Assembly (NCBI GenBank): GCA_016946835.1
Contig: JACVTC010000003.1
Location: 1,117,501-1,137,500 of the forward strand
Direction: 5' to 3'
DNA length: 20,000 bases
Source of the DNA: Neocallimastix lanati (nom. inval.)
Taxonomy: Eukaryota; Neocallimastigomycota; Neocallimastigomycetes; Neocallimastigales; Neocallimastigaceae
The notes under the pieces were generated by a model. It saw only the letters and a program-made list of their open reading frames with translations. It did not search any database and was not told where the DNA came from. The position numbers and the translations under genes were made by a program. Below, piece after piece: positions 355 to 19,852 of the stretch (its first letter is position 1; every line of letters starts with the position of its first letter).

Positions 355-3300
355 TTATTCGTTATTGTTGTAATATGAAGATCTACGATTATCTAATGTT
401 ATATTATTAAATGAACTAAAACGTTTTGTGTTTGTAGCTGTACTAAGTTGAGATGGCTGTGTTTCATTATAGAATGTAGAATAATTTCCCATATCTCCTT
501 CATTCTTTTCGGTGGTTTGTAAAAAGAATTCATTAGCAAGTATTTCTGCTCTTCGAATTTTTTCCCATTCTTCCCAAGTTTTCATAATAATACCACTACT
601 ATCAAATTCACCATCTGATTCGTGATTTCCTTTACTATCTGGTTTTTCTCCTTCCACTAAACGAGTTTGACCCCAACTAAAATCATCAAAATGCCAAAAA
701 GAATATACTGGAAATATAAAATTCCATACTGGAAGAGCTAAAAGATAAACAAACATCCATAAAATATACTTCATTTCTCGGGAAGTTAAGGCAATAAGAA
801 TGGCAGGTAATCCCATAATTAATACCATAAGTAAAAATGCCATTACATTTTTAGAACTAGAAAATATTAGGCTTCCTATAAGATAATAGGTGAAAAATAC
901 AGCTGCTGGTAATACCACTGTTCCTATCAATTCCATAAAAACTACAAATTGCATAGATATACAAAAAGTACCACAGAGATCATTAACAAGAACTAATTCT
1001 AAAAGGTTATGAACAGTACTATTAATCCAACGACGTCTTTGAGAAAGAAGAACTTTAAATTCTGCAGGAACAACAGTTTGACAAGTGGCCTGTGGTACAA
1101 ATACCATCTTTCTTTTAGGAAATTCTCTCAACATCAAAGTAGAAAGATAACGATCTTCTCCTAAAAGTAATAAATTTTTTTTATGAAGAGTATCTACTTT
1201 ATTTTCAGAATATTGTTCCACAATTTCTGGATTGGCAAGAATAGGAACCCAATAACCGTGAGAACCCTTTCTTGATTTAATTCGATACATACAGAAACAT
1301 CCAGGAAGACAGGTTACACCACCAAAGACAGATTCAAAAGCTTTAGACAAATGATGAGAAATATAATATTCAAATACTTGAATCATGCTAACCCAGCTCT
1401 CAGTTTTATTGGCAATTTGAGTTTCACCACAAAGACCCATAATTTTAGGATCCTCAATAAGGCATGCTACTAAATGAGACAAGGAATCTCTATCAACAAT
1501 GGTATCAGCATCAATCATCATTATGCTTTCATAGACATCGGCATATACTCCAGTTAATTCATGAATTTTAGTGAAAAGATCAAAATCAAATTCGGTCATA
1601 CGATCATTAAACATCACGCGACTTAAAAATCCTAAAAGAAGAATTTGTGAATCTCTTTTACCACGATTTCCTGGTTTAGGAGCTTTATTTGGTCCCAAAC
1701 GTTCACTTTCAGTACCACATTTAACAATACCAATCATCGGAATTTTACTTCCAAGGGTGGTTAACGCATTGCGATACCATCCTGCATATATTTTAGCCAT
1801 ATTATGTCTCTTTTTACCTTCAGCAATGGCTACATAACTTTTTGGCTCAGGTTCATCATCATGATAATTACTACCATCCCCAGGATCAATCATATCTATC
1901 ACAATATCTGGTGTTAATTTATCATTTCCCTCTCCTTTAACTAATCCATCACATATAACAACAATTAATTTAAGAGAATCGGGATAATTAGTTTCAGATA
2001 AGGAATCTAATGAATTTGCAATACCATCATGACCTTCAGAATAACAAGTTACCAAAAGAATTGTATGAAGTAAATCTTTAATTGTAGAACTTGATGTTAA
2101 AGGTCCACCAGAGGAAACGTTTTCTTCGGGTTCCATGACAGATGTACCACTCGTTAAAAGACCTACCGTTGACATTCTTTTATCATTCATAAGAGTAGGA
2201 GCAAGACTTAATCTTTTACTAGCAGGTGAATTAACGTCAGAGGGAGAAATCTCATCATCTAATATACCAACATTTGGTAATGTTGGTTCTGGTAATTCAT
2301 TCTTATGATTGTCATTTAATGGTGTAGAATCCCCTAACATTGGTGAGGAATGAACTTGAGTATTTTTAAAAATAGTATCTAAAGAAGGAGTACTCACAGT
2401 GGAAAAAATACTTTTTCTTTTATTATTATTTCCAATATTAGGACTTTGAGAACTGACTAAAGGAGATAATGGATCCCAACTACTAATACTATTTCTTTTA
2501 GGTTTTGTTAATTCAGCTAATGAACTGGGTGAAGAAATACCATTACTTTTAAATGGATTTGGATAATTTGGTAAGGAAAAATTACTATTACTTTTAATAA
2601 TGCTATTTCTGGAACCTTCTCCTGGCATAGGAATGGAAAAACGACTAGTCATACTTTTTCTATTTTGCTGTTTATTATTAACAGCTTTTTTGTCTTCATT
2701 ATTATCTTCAAAGTTTAAATTAAATATTTGACCAGTACTATTTCTACGACTTTTTTCATCAAATATATTAATACTTGCTCTTTTTGAAGTATTATTATTT
2801 ACTAATGAAGAAATGGAAAGACTATCTCTTAATACATGTCTCCTACTATCATAACCTTTAGATAAAGACTCCTGAAACTGATTCATTCTTTTTTCTTCTT
2901 CAGCTATTTTTCGAATGTAACCAAAGCGATCACCCATTTTCCATTTTAAAAACCAGTTAAAAACAAGTGCCATACAGAATTTAATAAAAATAACGCCAAT
3001 AACAAATACAAAAGTTAACACTAAAAAAATATTGCTAATAATACAGCCAGCTGTACTTTTTCCAATGGTTCCCACATTATAGAGTTCATTCATACATTTA
3101 ATAGAATCTTTAAATTTTTTATTTTTACTCATTGTGTAAGATATGTCTTTTCCTGCTTTGTCTCTAATAGCATCCGTAAATTTATTACCAAACTTACTGA
3201 TACCATTGGCAATATAATCGGTAATATCCAAAACATTACCATTATATACAACTAATTTTCTATTCTTTACTTCATTTAATCTTTTTAAATCATCCCAATT

Positions 3301-4653
3301 GTAATAAACAACACCTAACTTTCTAGCGGATATCTCTGGATTATTAAGAAGATCATTCATTCCATAGCAAGTTTTATCTTCTCTATGCTCCTTAATCAAA
3401 GATGTTTCAATAGTTTTCGATTGACAACTGTTAATACTATAATTATATCTTAACACTTTTTGACATGGACTCTTTGGATCAATTTCTAAAAAGTATTGAC
3501 CCATATCATGATCTTTTGAGGCACTAATAACACTATGGAGTCTTTTAGTTTCATTAAAATTTTTAATATAGATATCATAAGCAACACCATGAACAGAAAA
3601 TACAGTATCCGAATAATGAACCTTTGCAGTTTTATTGTTACATAAAAGATCATTAATACCAAAAGTGAAAAATCCTGAAATAAAACAAAAAATTAAAACT
3701 ATTGTGCAAAGAGTAACTTTTTCTCTCCATGCTTGTTGAACCCCTGGATCAGTTTTATGACATCTTTCTAAAAATACATTTGGAATATAGCATGTACATG
3801 CATTAGAGGCCATGTTCCACCATATGTTTTTAAGTGATTCCTTTTTAATTAATGTACTATTATCTTCTTCTGATCTTCCAAAATCAGGATCAATGGCATT
3901 CTTTTTAACAAATATATTACTTTGTCTTTTTAATTTTTCTTCCTCTGTCATGAATTTTATATTTGGAATGGTTTCATTGTTTTTACTGGAGTTATCGAAA
4001 TCATTAAAACTAGAATAATTGAAGGCATCATCATTATTAGAATTATTATTATATTCACTATTATTATTATTACTTTTATTGTAATTATCACTATTATAAT
4101 TATTATTCATGTCTGATGAATATGGATAAATTGGATAGGGTTCATCATTATCTTCAAAACTATTTTCTAATATTACATAATTTGGATTTTCAATAGCATA
4201 ATTCATATACTTATTTCTTCTTCTTGAACGTTCCGGTCTAATAAGGGAACGTTTTCTTCTAATTCCATTTGAATTACTTCTGGACGTATGACCTTCTTCT
4301 ACTGTACGGTCATCAATGGAGTAGCTAATTCTTTTATTTTTTGAATGTTTCTTTTTTTTATCATTATTATGATTTCTATTTGATGGAGGAGTAATATAGG
4401 CATTATCAGGATAGCCATTTTGATAATAATCATTGCGTTGATAGCATGTACTAATATCACCATTATCTGGATAATTAAAATTTTGATTTGGATTTTGATA
4501 TGAATATGGATTTGTGTTTAATTTCCTATTTTCATTAATATTATTATTTAAATCAGATATATGTTCATCTTGTGGAGTAGTTATAGGAATTGATAAAGAA
4601 TCAACAATTAATCCTGATGCTTGATTATCATCATTATTATAATTATCATCTTA

Positions 4654-13899: not shown

Positions 13900-15656
13900 A
13901 TGATGAAAATGAAACAGCATTTGCTTATGGGATTTATTTTTGTAATTTGTAAATATTTATTATTATATAAAATAATTAATATTATCATGAATTATTATTG
14001 TCTTATTAATTTTTATATTATGATATTATTATAAAAAATTTTTTTCTCTAATAATGGTAAATAGTATTACAATTAATTGAATGTAGTGATTTTCTTCGTG
14101 GGACTAATCGAGCAAAACTTTTTGAAATTACAGATTTTAATATTCCAAAAATTTATATTAATGTATCAGAATCGGATTGGAAATTATTAATCCAACCTAA
14201 AACGAACGAGAAAAATGAATTTATAAAAGTAGATTCAATGAATTTTGTACTTAATGATACAATTAAATCATCTTTTTCTTCTGTAAAAATAAATATTAGT
14301 GGACATACAAAAAATTACAAAAAACTTGAATATACTATTAAAATATTAGATTCGGATAAAGATTTATTTGGAAGAAGAAGTATTCAATTAAGATCAGATA
14401 TGCGTGATGCATCAATGATGAGAACAAAATTGACAAGTGATTTATTAAATCATTTAGGAATACCATCATTATCAGCAAATTACTGTCACCTATATATTAA
14501 TGGTGAATTTATGGGTTTATATATATTACAAGATATTTATAAACAATATTGGATTAAAAATTATTATAAAAATATAAATTTAAAAAAAGTTATTCTTTAC
14601 CAATGTAATAAAGAACAATCAGATTTAACTGAAAATAATTTAAGAACATGTGTGAATTTAAGTGATTCACCTTCATATCAACCTTTAGCTAATTTTATAA
14701 ATTTAATAAAAAATATTTCTTCTCGATCTCAGGTTGAATCAATAATGGATGTTGATGAATTTATAAAAACATGGATTGTTGAATGGTTAATTGGTTCTTG
14801 GGATCATATGTTACAGTCAGGAAAAAATTATTATTTATATCAACAAAATAATGGTAAATGGCAAATATTACTTTATGATTTCGATTCAACTTTTGGTCAA
14901 TTTTTACCATCGAAAGAGGAAATTTTACTAGAAAATAATAATGAAACTCAAGGTTTAGATAATGATACATTAATTTTAAAAAGTACTGAATTTAATGACT
15001 TATCAAATAAAATAAAAAGAAATAATTTATTGCAAAATATTGGCCCTTACATGAATGCATCTAGTTGCTTTATAGATTTCCCATATTGGTATGTAGATCG
15101 TCCTGTTGTTGATGGTCTTATTGCTAGTGATTACAAATCTTTTTTGAAAAATTTGTATGAAATTATTCAAAATGGTTTTAATCCTAAAATTTTATTTCCA
15201 AGAATTGATGAACTCAAGGAATGGCTTGATCCATATATTAAAGAAGACAGAACGATAGTAAATGATATTTTACCAGGCCGTATAAATAATAATGGAACAA
15301 GTTATGATTCAACATATGAAGAGTTTAAATTAAATACTGAATATACAACAGTAAATTATGGGGTTGGAATTAAAAAATGGATACAAGATCGCTTTGATTT
15401 TGTATGTGAGCAATATAAATTGAATTGCAATGGTTCCACGAATTCAACTATTGATTTTTATGATTTAATAAATAATTATAATAATACAAATGAAAGTAAT
15501 AACTTTAGAAATGAACATTTTAATAAATATTTTGGAAATTTAAATAAAAATCAAACTTGTTTTATTGCAAGTGAGAGTTCAGCAATTAAAAATTATTTAG
15601 TGACATTTAAATATATAATTGTAATCATTGGTTTAATAATATCATTAATCTATTAA
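13900..15656 (+). CDS. CotH-family (spore-coat kinase-like) secreted or surface protein, two exons
   Basis: CotH proteins are atypical kinases of the secretory pathway in bacteria and adhesin/invasin-like surface proteins in Mucorales. They are numerous in gut fungi, where their role is unclear. Model: exons 13900-13948 and 14065-15656 (546 aa). The 116-bp intron has donor GTAAAT and acceptor AATAG, phase 1. Splicing rebuilds a signal peptide, MKQHLLMGFIFVILLQLIEC, which neither exon encodes alone. The CotH core includes the RSDMRDASMMR segment, GEFMGLYILQD, then WDHMLQSGKNYYLY (Asp about 263) and LYDFDSTFG (Asp 288 and 290). The last two resemble the family's catalytic and metal-binding motifs. 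Several NxT/S sites lie in the C-terminal third. The protein ends in a hydrophobic stretch of about 20 residues with almost nothing after it, consistent with a GPI signal or a tail anchor. No dockerin is present. Confidence 0.9.
13949..14064 (+). other. intron of the CotH gene
   Basis: 116-bp GT-AG intron, donor GTAAATAT after GTAATTT, acceptor AAATAG before TATTACAATT. One base on the left plus two on the right makes a Leu codon. It interrupts the signal peptide. Confidence 0.85.
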
Positions 15657-16595: not shown

Positions 16596-17195
16596 ATGAT
16601 ACAAGCCGCCACTGAAGAAGATAATAATAATATAGTAAAATTATATTATATATATATATTAATATTTATTTAATTTTAAACATATTTATATAATAATATT
16701 AAAATATTGTTTATTTATTTATATATATTTATATTTCATTTTATATTCATTTATAATTTCAAATTTCAAAGATTGAAAAATTCATTGATGTCAATGTTAG
16801 AAAGGAAAATGAAGTTAATAGTCGATTAACAGAATTTTATGAAACATACAAAAATATCCTTTTATATAAATAATTTCATTATATATTAAAATAATATTTT
16901 AGTATAAAATAAATTATTTATTTTATATTAATGTCATTGTTAATTTTTTTAATATATAAATAATATAAAACAATTATCCCTTAACCTGAATATACATAGT
17001 TCAACATTTATTGGACCTGAAGTTACTTCTGGCGCAAAAACTGCATTTGTTGATTCATTAATCGATAGTTTATCTTCTTGTATACATAATGAACTTGAAT
17101 GGAGTGATAAAAGTATGAATTTCAATTAATTATTAAATATAATTATTTATTGAAAACAATGTATTAATAATTTTTATTTTAAAAAATTGAAATTT

Positions 17196-17247
<52 letters not shown>

Positions 17248-17465
17248 TATATTAAGCTAAATTCCTTGCATTACAAGCTTTAAGAATATTATGTCGTGAA
17301 CCAGAAGGTTGTGAAGGTGTTTTCACTTCTTCTGTATGTATAAAAAAATTATGGATAATGAACATAGAATAGTTGAATATAATGGCCAATTTCTATATAT
17401 CTTTTATTCGTTAACTATTAGAAGGAAAACAAATGAAAACAAAGCAAAACAAAACAAAACAAAAC

Positions 17466-17496
<31 letters not shown>

Positions 17497-18488
17497 AACT
17501 AATATATTTATAATATATTTAAAATATATATATAATAGGGAATATCATTATTAATGGAATATGCAGGATTAAAACCAACCGGAAAAGGTAAAAAGAGCGA
17601 AGATATTATTGAACCAACAAAAGAATTTAATAACATTGTTATTGAATCAATGAAGTGCTTATCCAATGCTTTATTACAAAACCGTCAATCCCAAGAATTC
17701 TTTGATAACAATAATGGAATAAAATCCTTACTTGTTAATTTAAAAGTAGGTTTATAAAAATATATATTATCAAAAAATGAATATAATATATAAATATTAA
17801 TAATATACAAATATTAATACTATTTTGTTTATTTTCTATTTGTAATAATCACTTAATTAGGAAGTTAAAAATAATTCATTACAAGCACAATTTTTAATTT
17901 TAAGATTAATTTTTTTATCTACAATTTATCAAGAGAATACAAGTGAAGTTATGGATGAATATAATGCTATTGAAGATTTGATTGACGTAATTCATCACAA
18001 CATAAAATTAAAATTTCACTTTTAATTTTATTAATAATTTTATTATTATATACAATTTTATTTTAATAGAATTATATATTTATTAATTATTATTTTGATA
18101 TATATTTTAAAAATATTATTTATATTAAATATTTTGATTTAGTTATTCCAACCAATTTTGGAAAATATTTCTGAATCATCTAAAACATTTTCAACTACAA
18201 TTTTACCAGGAGAAATTTCATATTCAATTGTAATTAGTGAAATCTTAAAAGTTTTATTTAATATGATGGTTAATGAAAAAAAGAAAGATACAGATATTCA
18301 AAGTAGTGCATCAATTACTGTTGATGAAGAAATAGCTAAAAAATATGAAAGGTTACTATAAAATTTCATATAATTTTCATAACACAAATTTAAATATTAA
18401 ATTATATTTATAAAAATTCTAAATTATTTAATAATTTATTTTTATTAATTTTTTATACATTATATACTGTATATTTTATTATATGTTA

Positions 18489-18526
<38 letters not shown>

Positions 18527-19852
18527 CTGTTTACTATTATTATAATTATTATTTATAAAAAAGGTTTATCCCATTAATTGTTGAATATTTTGTAAAATCT
18601 AATATGCCAAATCCGCCATTATCACCACCATATACTCATGCTATACATGCTTTAATGAATTTCCCAGTTAAAGGATTTGAATCAAAATTCTTTCCGAATG
18701 AAGATTATTCTATCATTGATGTTTTAAGTGATGTATTAGAAGTTACCATAAAACAATCAAATATAAGTCATAGTATGGAAAATGATGATGCAGCATTAAT
18801 CAATGGATCCCCAGCTGATTCTGTTCTTCCACCATTAATCATTTTAATGACTAATCTTGTAAAAGATAACACTGAAGCAAGATCAAAATTAAAAGAAAGA
18901 ATATTACCATCTGAATTGTAAATATATTATTATATTATTATTATTTATTTTTTTCTCATTATGATCTTTACATATATATACAAAGTTCAACTACATTTAA
19001 AATTAATAATATTTACAATAATATTTTAATTCTTCCTTATAATTATTAATATTAAAATTTGTTTTATTTTATAAATAATTTTTTTTTTTTTTTGTTATTT
19101 TTTTAAAAAAAAATAGTAATAGATCAAAGCCATTGAATGTTGGTGAAAGTATTAGAGCTTGTCTAATTAGATTAATGACTAATACTCTTTTAGGAAATTC
19201 AAGAGAAACTATTTCAACATTATTATATACACTTTGTGATAGTAATGGTAATTATATTTTAAAAAAAAATAAAATAACATAAATTCATAAATTTATCTAT
19301 AAATAAAATAACATAAAAATTAATATTTTGAATATACGTATATAATTTCAATATATTATTTTTATATAAAATATTATTATAATTAAATTATAATTATTAA
19401 TTATTAATTATTAATTATTAATTATTAATTATTAATTGTTATTTGTTATTTGTTAATTATTATTTATTATTTAATAAAAAAATTTTTATTAAAAATATAT
19501 ATGATTAATCATTATTAATAATGTATATATTATTATTGTTAATATAGCTAATGTATTTGTTAACCAAGTTGGTTATGGTAATGCTATTGGTTATTTAGTT
19601 AATCATCAATTAATGGGTGAGTTAAATAATACTGTTGATGAAAATGCTCCAAATGATCAGAATATTAACCCAATTACAGGACAAATTGAAGATGATAATA
19701 AGGAGGACCCATTTAAAAATATGACTGATGAAGAAAAAGAAAGAGAAGCTGAAAGATTATTTGTTTTATTCGATAGATTAAATAAGACTGGTGTAATAAA
19801 AGTTATGCCAAAACCAGCTGACGCTGATAATATTGTCAATGATTTAGATTAA
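16596..19852 (+). CDS. RIC8: synembryn / RIC8, chaperone and guanine-nucleotide exchange factor for G-alpha, ten exons
   Basis: Ric-8 is a cytosolic armadillo-like protein that folds G-alpha subunits and promotes their GDP/GTP exchange. Exons: 16596-16634, 16772-16853, 16996-17112, 17257-17333, 17539-17745, 17861-17986, 18143-18351, 18564-18917, 19117-19247, 19548-19852. The total is 1647 nt, 548 aa, close to the usual 530-600. All ten exons join in phase. Family-like blocks in order are: KFLALQALRILCREPEGCE, ESMKCLSNALLQNRQSQEF, QFLILRLIFLSTIYQENT, SEILKVLFNMMVN, YTHAIHALMNFP, PPLIILMTNLVKDNTEAR, ACLIRLMTN and NQVGYGNAIGYLVNHQLM. The C-terminus is acidic and ends at TAA. Eight introns are GT-AG, with donors GTAAAA, GTATGA, GTATGT, GTAGGT, GTAATT, GTTACT (weak), GTAAAT and GTAATT. 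Intron 2 is AT-AC with U12-type signals. No exon is missing. Confidence 0.92.
16854..16995 (+). other. RIC8 intron 2, U12-type AT-AC intron
   Basis: The 142-bp intron begins ATATCCTTTT, an exact match to the U12 AT-AC 5' splice-site consensus ATATCCTT. It contains TCCCTTAAC at 16977-16985, one mismatch from the U12 branch consensus TTCCTTAAC. It ends TATAC 11 nt after the branch adenosine (16984). Exon 2 ends in phase 1 (A) and exon 3 starts AT, giving Asn and an open frame on both sides. No GT lies between the last conserved codons and the in-frame TAA. The nearby AG (16998-16999) would break phase. Confidence 0.88.
17197..17251. repeat. A run followed by an AT dinucleotide run in RIC8 intron 3
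   Basis: About 35 A followed by roughly ten AT units, ending five bases before the acceptor TTAAG of exon 4. Confidence 0.85.
17425..17494. repeat. AAAAC pentanucleotide repeat and A run in RIC8 intron 4
   Basis: Imperfect AAAAC/AAATG units grade into pure AAAAC, then a run of about 27 A, within the intron between exons 4 and 5. The open frame across it is fortuitous. Confidence 0.8.
18496..18521. repeat. AT dinucleotide run in RIC8 intron 7
   Basis: About 13 AT units, about 40 bases upstream of the acceptor of exon 8. Confidence 0.85.
19390..19437. repeat. heptanucleotide tandem repeat (TAATTAT) in RIC8 intron 9
   Basis: Six to seven units of a 7-base motif, then degenerate ATTTGTT units up to about 19455. 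It is intronic and has no protein effect. Confidence 0.85.

Follow-up and report, generated by a model that had tools for sequence, protein, structure and literature searches.

Is the interruption between the second and third exons of the RIC8 gene in this anaerobic gut fungus an intron of the minor, U12-dependent class, and does the same genome hold the machinery that would remove it? The gene lies in the window (i.e., the whole 20,000-nucleotide stretch of DNA analysed here), which comes from a 199-Mb genome in 762 contigs. From the exon model, Pfam Ric8, solved relatives and homologues, we placed a gene of the RIC8 (guanine nucleotide exchange factor synembryn) family, with 10 exons and 548 aa, at 16596–19852 (+). 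With 16853 spliced onto 16996 in phase 1 and eight GT-AG introns removed, we obtained a stop-free protein of that length, which matched Pfam Ric8 with an E-value of 9e-101 (338.5 bits) and whose solved-structure matches were Ric-8A/synembryn, in agreement with the gene identity that had been predicted from the letters. In the exon model the first of the GT-AG introns (16635–16771, +; 137 nt) is ordinary, and seven others also have GT-AG ends. The original prediction had further placed the DNA in an anaerobic gut fungus, and this too was supported: leaving aside metagenome proteins without a name and the cluster to which the window itself belongs, the best named relatives of the window's chitin synthase were from Anaeromyces and Piromyces. 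Two proteins named Neocallimastix matched it at 59% and look like paralogues. This chitin synthase is a single ORF at 355–4206 (−) with Chitin_synth_2 and a CHS4-like domain, and a CotH kinase-family protein with a hydrophobic C-terminus is found at 14238–15656 (+).

The putative minor intron (16854–16995, +; 142 nt, phase 1) was placed by its motifs, the exon model, homologues and a second gene copy. It separates exon 2 (16772–16853, +; exon model, with its protein identical in the homologue P0002) from exon 3 (16996–17112, +; exon model and homologue alignment), and its ends read ATATCCTTTTAT...TTATCCCTTAACCTGAATATAC. The 5' splice site ATATCCTTTT (16854–16863, +), which is predicted to pair with AAAAAGGG of U11, contains an exact match to the consensus RTATCCTT (ATATCCTT at 16854–16861). 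The branch site TCCCTTAAC (16977–16985, +), predicted to pair with GUAAGGAU of U12, is one base off TTCCTTAAC and so close to the general form TTCCTTRAC. The terminal AC (16994–16995, +) is the first AC past the branch site and gives a short branch-to-AC distance of 10 nt (motif end to AC end). An AT-AC intron of U12 type had been claimed on precisely these signals, and the claim stands. We simulated the window 5,363 times with a first-order Markov model and counted, on both strands, the signature (i.e., ATATCCTT, YCCTTAAC 25–200 nt on and an AC within 8–14 nt; patterns picked post hoc) and a looser form. The signature appeared 4 times and the looser form 41 times; one of each is present in the real window.

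It had also been claimed that reading phase is kept only by the AT-AC junction. The AT-AC join does keep the frame, but so does a GT-AG pair at 16821–17022, the single in-frame and stop-free choice among 26 GT/GC-AG pairs between exons 2 and 3. When any termini were allowed, 38 in-frame, stop-free pairs were found in the range tested, the AT-AC pair and the GT-AG pair among them; because frame alone is thus insufficient, it is the motifs and the homologues that single out the AT-AC junction. If 16821–17022 were the true intron, or the frame were misread, no AT-AC splicing would take place at all. However, the donor of this GT-AG pair, GTCGATTAA, looks weak next to the gene's other donors, and its use would cost the protein 20 residues in a part that is present in each of the 12 homologues spanning the junction. 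On the strength of the 26-pair test and the homologues we rejected the GT-AG reading and consider it extremely improbable.

These homologues came from a protein search in which 7,995 candidates were scored and 74 relatives returned, 13 of them at 84–99% identity. Twelve of the 13 (P0001–P0012) cross the junction without a gap, reading YKN, YKD or YQN and then SSTFI, while P0013 is without the N-terminus. The longest contigs of the twelve measure 1,641–2,085 nt against 3,257 nt for the gene, from which we infer that these proteins, deduced from other contigs, derive from spliced RNA; AT-AC splicing at this junction is thus supported by 12 transcript-sized homologues. Every aligned homologue fell short of full-length identity to the window's protein: P0001 differs at 6 sites and P0002 first differs at alignment column 264. 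Cross-species comparison of RIC8 was made at the protein level.

Ric8 exons were also detected on another contig (C9, locus L069), and at the exon 2/3 boundary of this second copy we found ATATCCTTTG, the branch site ATCCTTAAC and an AC 10 nt on, in identical phase. Compared with the window, 75 of 82 and 107 of 117 aligned bases were identical in the two exons, and the intron alignment had 103 identical, 39 mismatched and 38 gap columns; the interior of the intron has diverged between the copies while the splice signals are intact. P0004 is close to the second copy on either side of the junction. The two gene copies have diverged to about 80–84% DNA identity in long matches, and P0001 and P0002 have the look of mosaics of the two, which assembly or recombination would explain.

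The original prediction had gone on to infer a working minor spliceosome and had proposed a search for its snRNAs and specific proteins. Using Rfam models across the genome, we found a U12 gene (56.8 bits, cut-off 53), two U6atac genes (L010 and L011; 57.4 and 56.4 bits, cut-off 33) and a U11 gene (40.5 bits, cut-off 39), together with a candidate that scored 47.2 bits, below the cut-off of 53, and is probably U4atac. The U12 and U6atac models had no match in 14 control genomes (a weak control, as the two named ones are prokaryotes), where U4atac and U11 each had one below-cut-off match at E ≤ 1. U12 carries GUAAGGAU opposite the branch site. An altered U11 5' end was considered and rejected, as the Rfam match starts too far downstream; judging from the sequence, the true 5' end is probably AAAAAGGGCUUAUG, located ~130 nt upstream of that match (about position 1367 of L013), and this putative end keeps the classic motif. 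In U11, GCUUAUG pairs over 7 bp with CGUGAGC. The minor-specific proteins searched for, U11/U12-25K and CENATAC, were both found. U11/U12-25K matched PF18036 with 36.2 bits (cut-off 22.8) and, once the upstream exon was added, its solved matches were an uninformatively named mouse protein (E 2.9e-6) and U11/U12-25K itself (E 2.9e-5). CENATAC, which serves AT-AN minor introns, was recognised through PF14968 in three exons, in order and on one contig, two of them above the cut-off and one below; the joined pieces scored 93.5 bits. The snRNAs, the two proteins, the transcript-sized homologues and the further AT-AC introns described below all support the idea of a working minor spliceosome. U12 introns are not the only ones to have AT-AC termini (relevant passages of PMC3584512), and the major spliceosome could in principle remove the RIC8 intron as a non-canonical, U2-type AT-AC intron. 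Against this, both the ATATCCTT start and the YCCTTAAC-type branch site are signals of the minor type and recur in the second copy, and the genome contains minor snRNAs, so that we regard U2-type removal as very improbable. We conclude that 16854–16995 is almost certainly a minor-spliceosome AT-AC intron in an anaerobic gut fungus RIC8 gene.

Further AT-AC introns were sought with two patterns, each controlled by its reversed form. The first (RTATCCTT, then TCCTTRAC 41–101 nt on) gave 39 matches versus 36 in the control, i.e., no total excess, and most matches look coding. We examined 35 of the 39, calling the other 4 coding from the letters alone, and accepted by eye those with an A+T-rich insert whose removal at the first AC past the branch site joined open frames. 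Ten of the 35 were accepted as AT-AC introns; three A+T-rich matches (L033, L038 and L043) were judged and none was accepted. The second pattern (RTATCCTTTT with a gap of 98–158) gave 8 matches versus 0 in the control, of which 6 were accepted and 2 look coding. The total beyond RIC8 is 16 predicted introns in 14 genes (RPL27 and a Urb2-like gene having two each), and all 16 are AT-AC. Over both searches, 13 of 47 matches start with GTATCCTT; we accepted none of the 12 examined as a GT-AG minor intron, and L047 came closest to an intron.

Pfam matches at E ≤ 0.01 were obtained for nine of the 14 joined peptides tested; three (RPL27e, eIF2A and RhoGAP) passed the cut-off set by Pfam and six (POLR3C, IFT TPR, RasGEF_N, CDC24 OB, Urb2 and EF-hand) fell short of it. 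Over its whole length, the joined RPL27 protein was 100% identical to cluster P0105 (named Anaeromyces robustus), whose named member may differ from its representative and whose large genomic contigs mean that by itself it is not RNA evidence. In three cases (L023, L044 and L048) the first AG keeps an open frame too and the AC end is not forced; in L018 the AC and AG are 2 nt apart, and in L073 just 13 downstream codons are readable before masked sequence.

Intron length ranged from 107 to 236 nt in the 17 AT-AC introns measured. The distance from branch site to AC is 10 nt in both RIC8 copies, and so short a distance is not general among the genome's other predicted introns, where it spans 10–89 nt (10, 12, 12, 17, 27, 31, 31, 32, 34, 39, 41, 52, 73, 74, 81 and 89 nt), although both this distribution and the apparent first-AC rule are biased by the method, as the gap limit of the first search favours long distances and only the first AC was tested. 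The literature optimum is 11–13 nt according to the passages of PMC3584512 that deal with it. In L016, L018, L019, L042, L046, L049 and L071 the branch site lies 39–89 nt from the AC used, which is the first AC past it. The long-distance introns are candidates for unusual 3' splice site choice.

The unusual part of this system was U6atac. Both copies are full length, score over the cut-off and keep the stem II region that pairs with U4atac, yet they differ from Rfam U6atac (RF00619) in reading UAUGAGCCGAGAGACAGUUGGCAC (the AGCCGAGAG form) where Rfam has UAUGAAAGGAGAGAAGGUUAGCAC: the AAAGGA element is replaced by AGCCGA, AGC has become GGC, and one base is inserted at position 31. The canonical pairing of AAAGGA with +4 to +9 is absent from both copies. 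Positions 13 and 14, facing +7 and +6, are C (GCC at 12–14), so that both pairs are lost in each copy, and the predicted energy of the duplex between U6atac and the 5' splice site goes from −6.8 to −2.5 kcal/mol. A pattern in which the changed positions were left free found just these two U6atac places in the genome, and U6atac patterns had 0 matches in viral_contigs and genome_contigs. The copies are identical over their first 54 nt, and their flanks differ in 1 of 150 columns just downstream and 11 of 150 upstream; being recent duplicates, they are not independent. The human P120 minigene has the wild-type site AUAUCCUU. In human cells a CC5/6GG change at the 5' splice site was rescued by U6atac GG14/15CC (as described in part of PMC4980772), and therefore +6/+7 pairing matters there. 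When we searched the fungal genome with +6/+7 left free, CT was present in 9 of 17 matches (the reversed control had 35 in total); 7 of these 9 were accepted introns and the other two coding. Among the eight matches with other letters, none of the three examined was a convincing intron. With CT kept at +6/+7 in the accepted introns, it follows that the change lies in U6atac, the motif being retained in the introns found.

Two further ideas on U6atac were considered. Fungal U12 (UUGCC) and U4atac (UGCC) can pair with the GGC of U6atac; U12/U6atac coevolution was unsupported, as consensus U12 pairs with fungal U6atac at −6.6 kcal/mol versus −6.1 kcal/mol for fungal U12. Likewise unsupported was a new U6atac hairpin between 12–14 and 26–28 (z −0.58, with 48 of 200 shuffles equally good).

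One explanation of the altered U6atac is decay, i.e., that the snRNA genes are relics of a failing minor spliceosome and the U6atac helix with the 5' splice site was lost by drift. The replacement of AAAGGA in both copies fits such a scenario (their agreement proving little in near-identical recent duplicates), as do the below-cut-off U4atac score and a U4atac/U6atac stem I predicted to be weaker in the fungus than in the consensus (−7.6 versus −11.7 kcal/mol). By contrast, stem II (−26.7 kcal/mol) still has 11 consecutive paired bases, pairing of fungal U4atac with Rfam-consensus U6atac is weaker (−17.2 kcal/mol), and RPL27 and eIF2A are among the genes interrupted by the 18 predicted AT-AC introns. 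We therefore consider decay very improbable. For fungal U6atac, consensus U4atac (−26.9 kcal/mol) is as good a partner as fungal U4atac, so that coevolution of the two RNAs would be on one side only.

For a working minor spliceosome, the snRNAs found would act on the RIC8 intron itself: U11 would pair with AUAUCCUUUU and U12 with UCCCUUAAC, U4atac/U6atac.U5 would then displace U11, and the first AC past the branch site would serve as the 3' splice site. Because AGCCGA has taken the place of AAAGGA, U6atac would probably touch the 5' splice site via a short or interrupted helix. We tentatively extend this to the genome as a whole, in a proposal that we rate as plausible though slightly short of an even chance: the fungus would run a minor spliceosome whose U6atac gave up the AAAGGA helix while its introns keep AUAUCCUUUU for U11. 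The choice of 5' splice site would then fall to U11 alone, the catalytic helix with U6atac would be short, like that of the major spliceosome, and the intron set would be almost purely AT-AC, with the first AC chosen at distances of up to about 90 nt from the branch site. Among open-licence papers we found none on the U6atac change, which may be new. The altered U6atac offers a natural test of the need for pairing between U6atac and the 5' splice site in minor splicing, in an AT-rich gut fungus where a working minor spliceosome is supported and the small intron set is so far purely AT-AC.

Minor introns in Neocallimastigomycetes were covered by a 2023 survey from Larue and Roy. The novelty of such introns here, which the original prediction implied, does not hold, since the pertinent parts of PMC10639083 (2023) already list this class among the fungi with minor introns and minor snRNAs. 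An earlier paper mentions minor RNAs in Zygomycota and Chytridiomycota (PMC2846911, 2010; passage concerned). Among the papers searched we found no report besides PMC10639083 on minor introns with Neocallimastix, none on Neocallimastigomycota with U12-type introns, and none on anaerobic gut fungi with spliceosome and intron. The RIC8 intron is genuine and looks like an ordinary minor intron, and its lineage was already known to have such introns. The members of the same class covered by the survey include Piromyces finnis and Neocallimastix californiae, described as having minor introns and many if not all minor snRNAs; the passages of PMC10639083 on these fungi make no mention of RIC8, the AT-AC share, the U6atac sequence or the branch-to-AC spacing. 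Rhizophagus irregularis, as presented in the same passages, is also a fungus, with minor introns that have canonical motifs and with all four minor snRNAs; 205 minor introns were predicted there, compared with 18 here, all AT-AC, from a partial pattern search. A strong AT-AC excess is shared with Blastocystis (196 of 253 in the corresponding part of PMC10639083), which is, however, a stramenopile with introns of median 39 bp, whereas the 17 measured here are 107–236 nt long.
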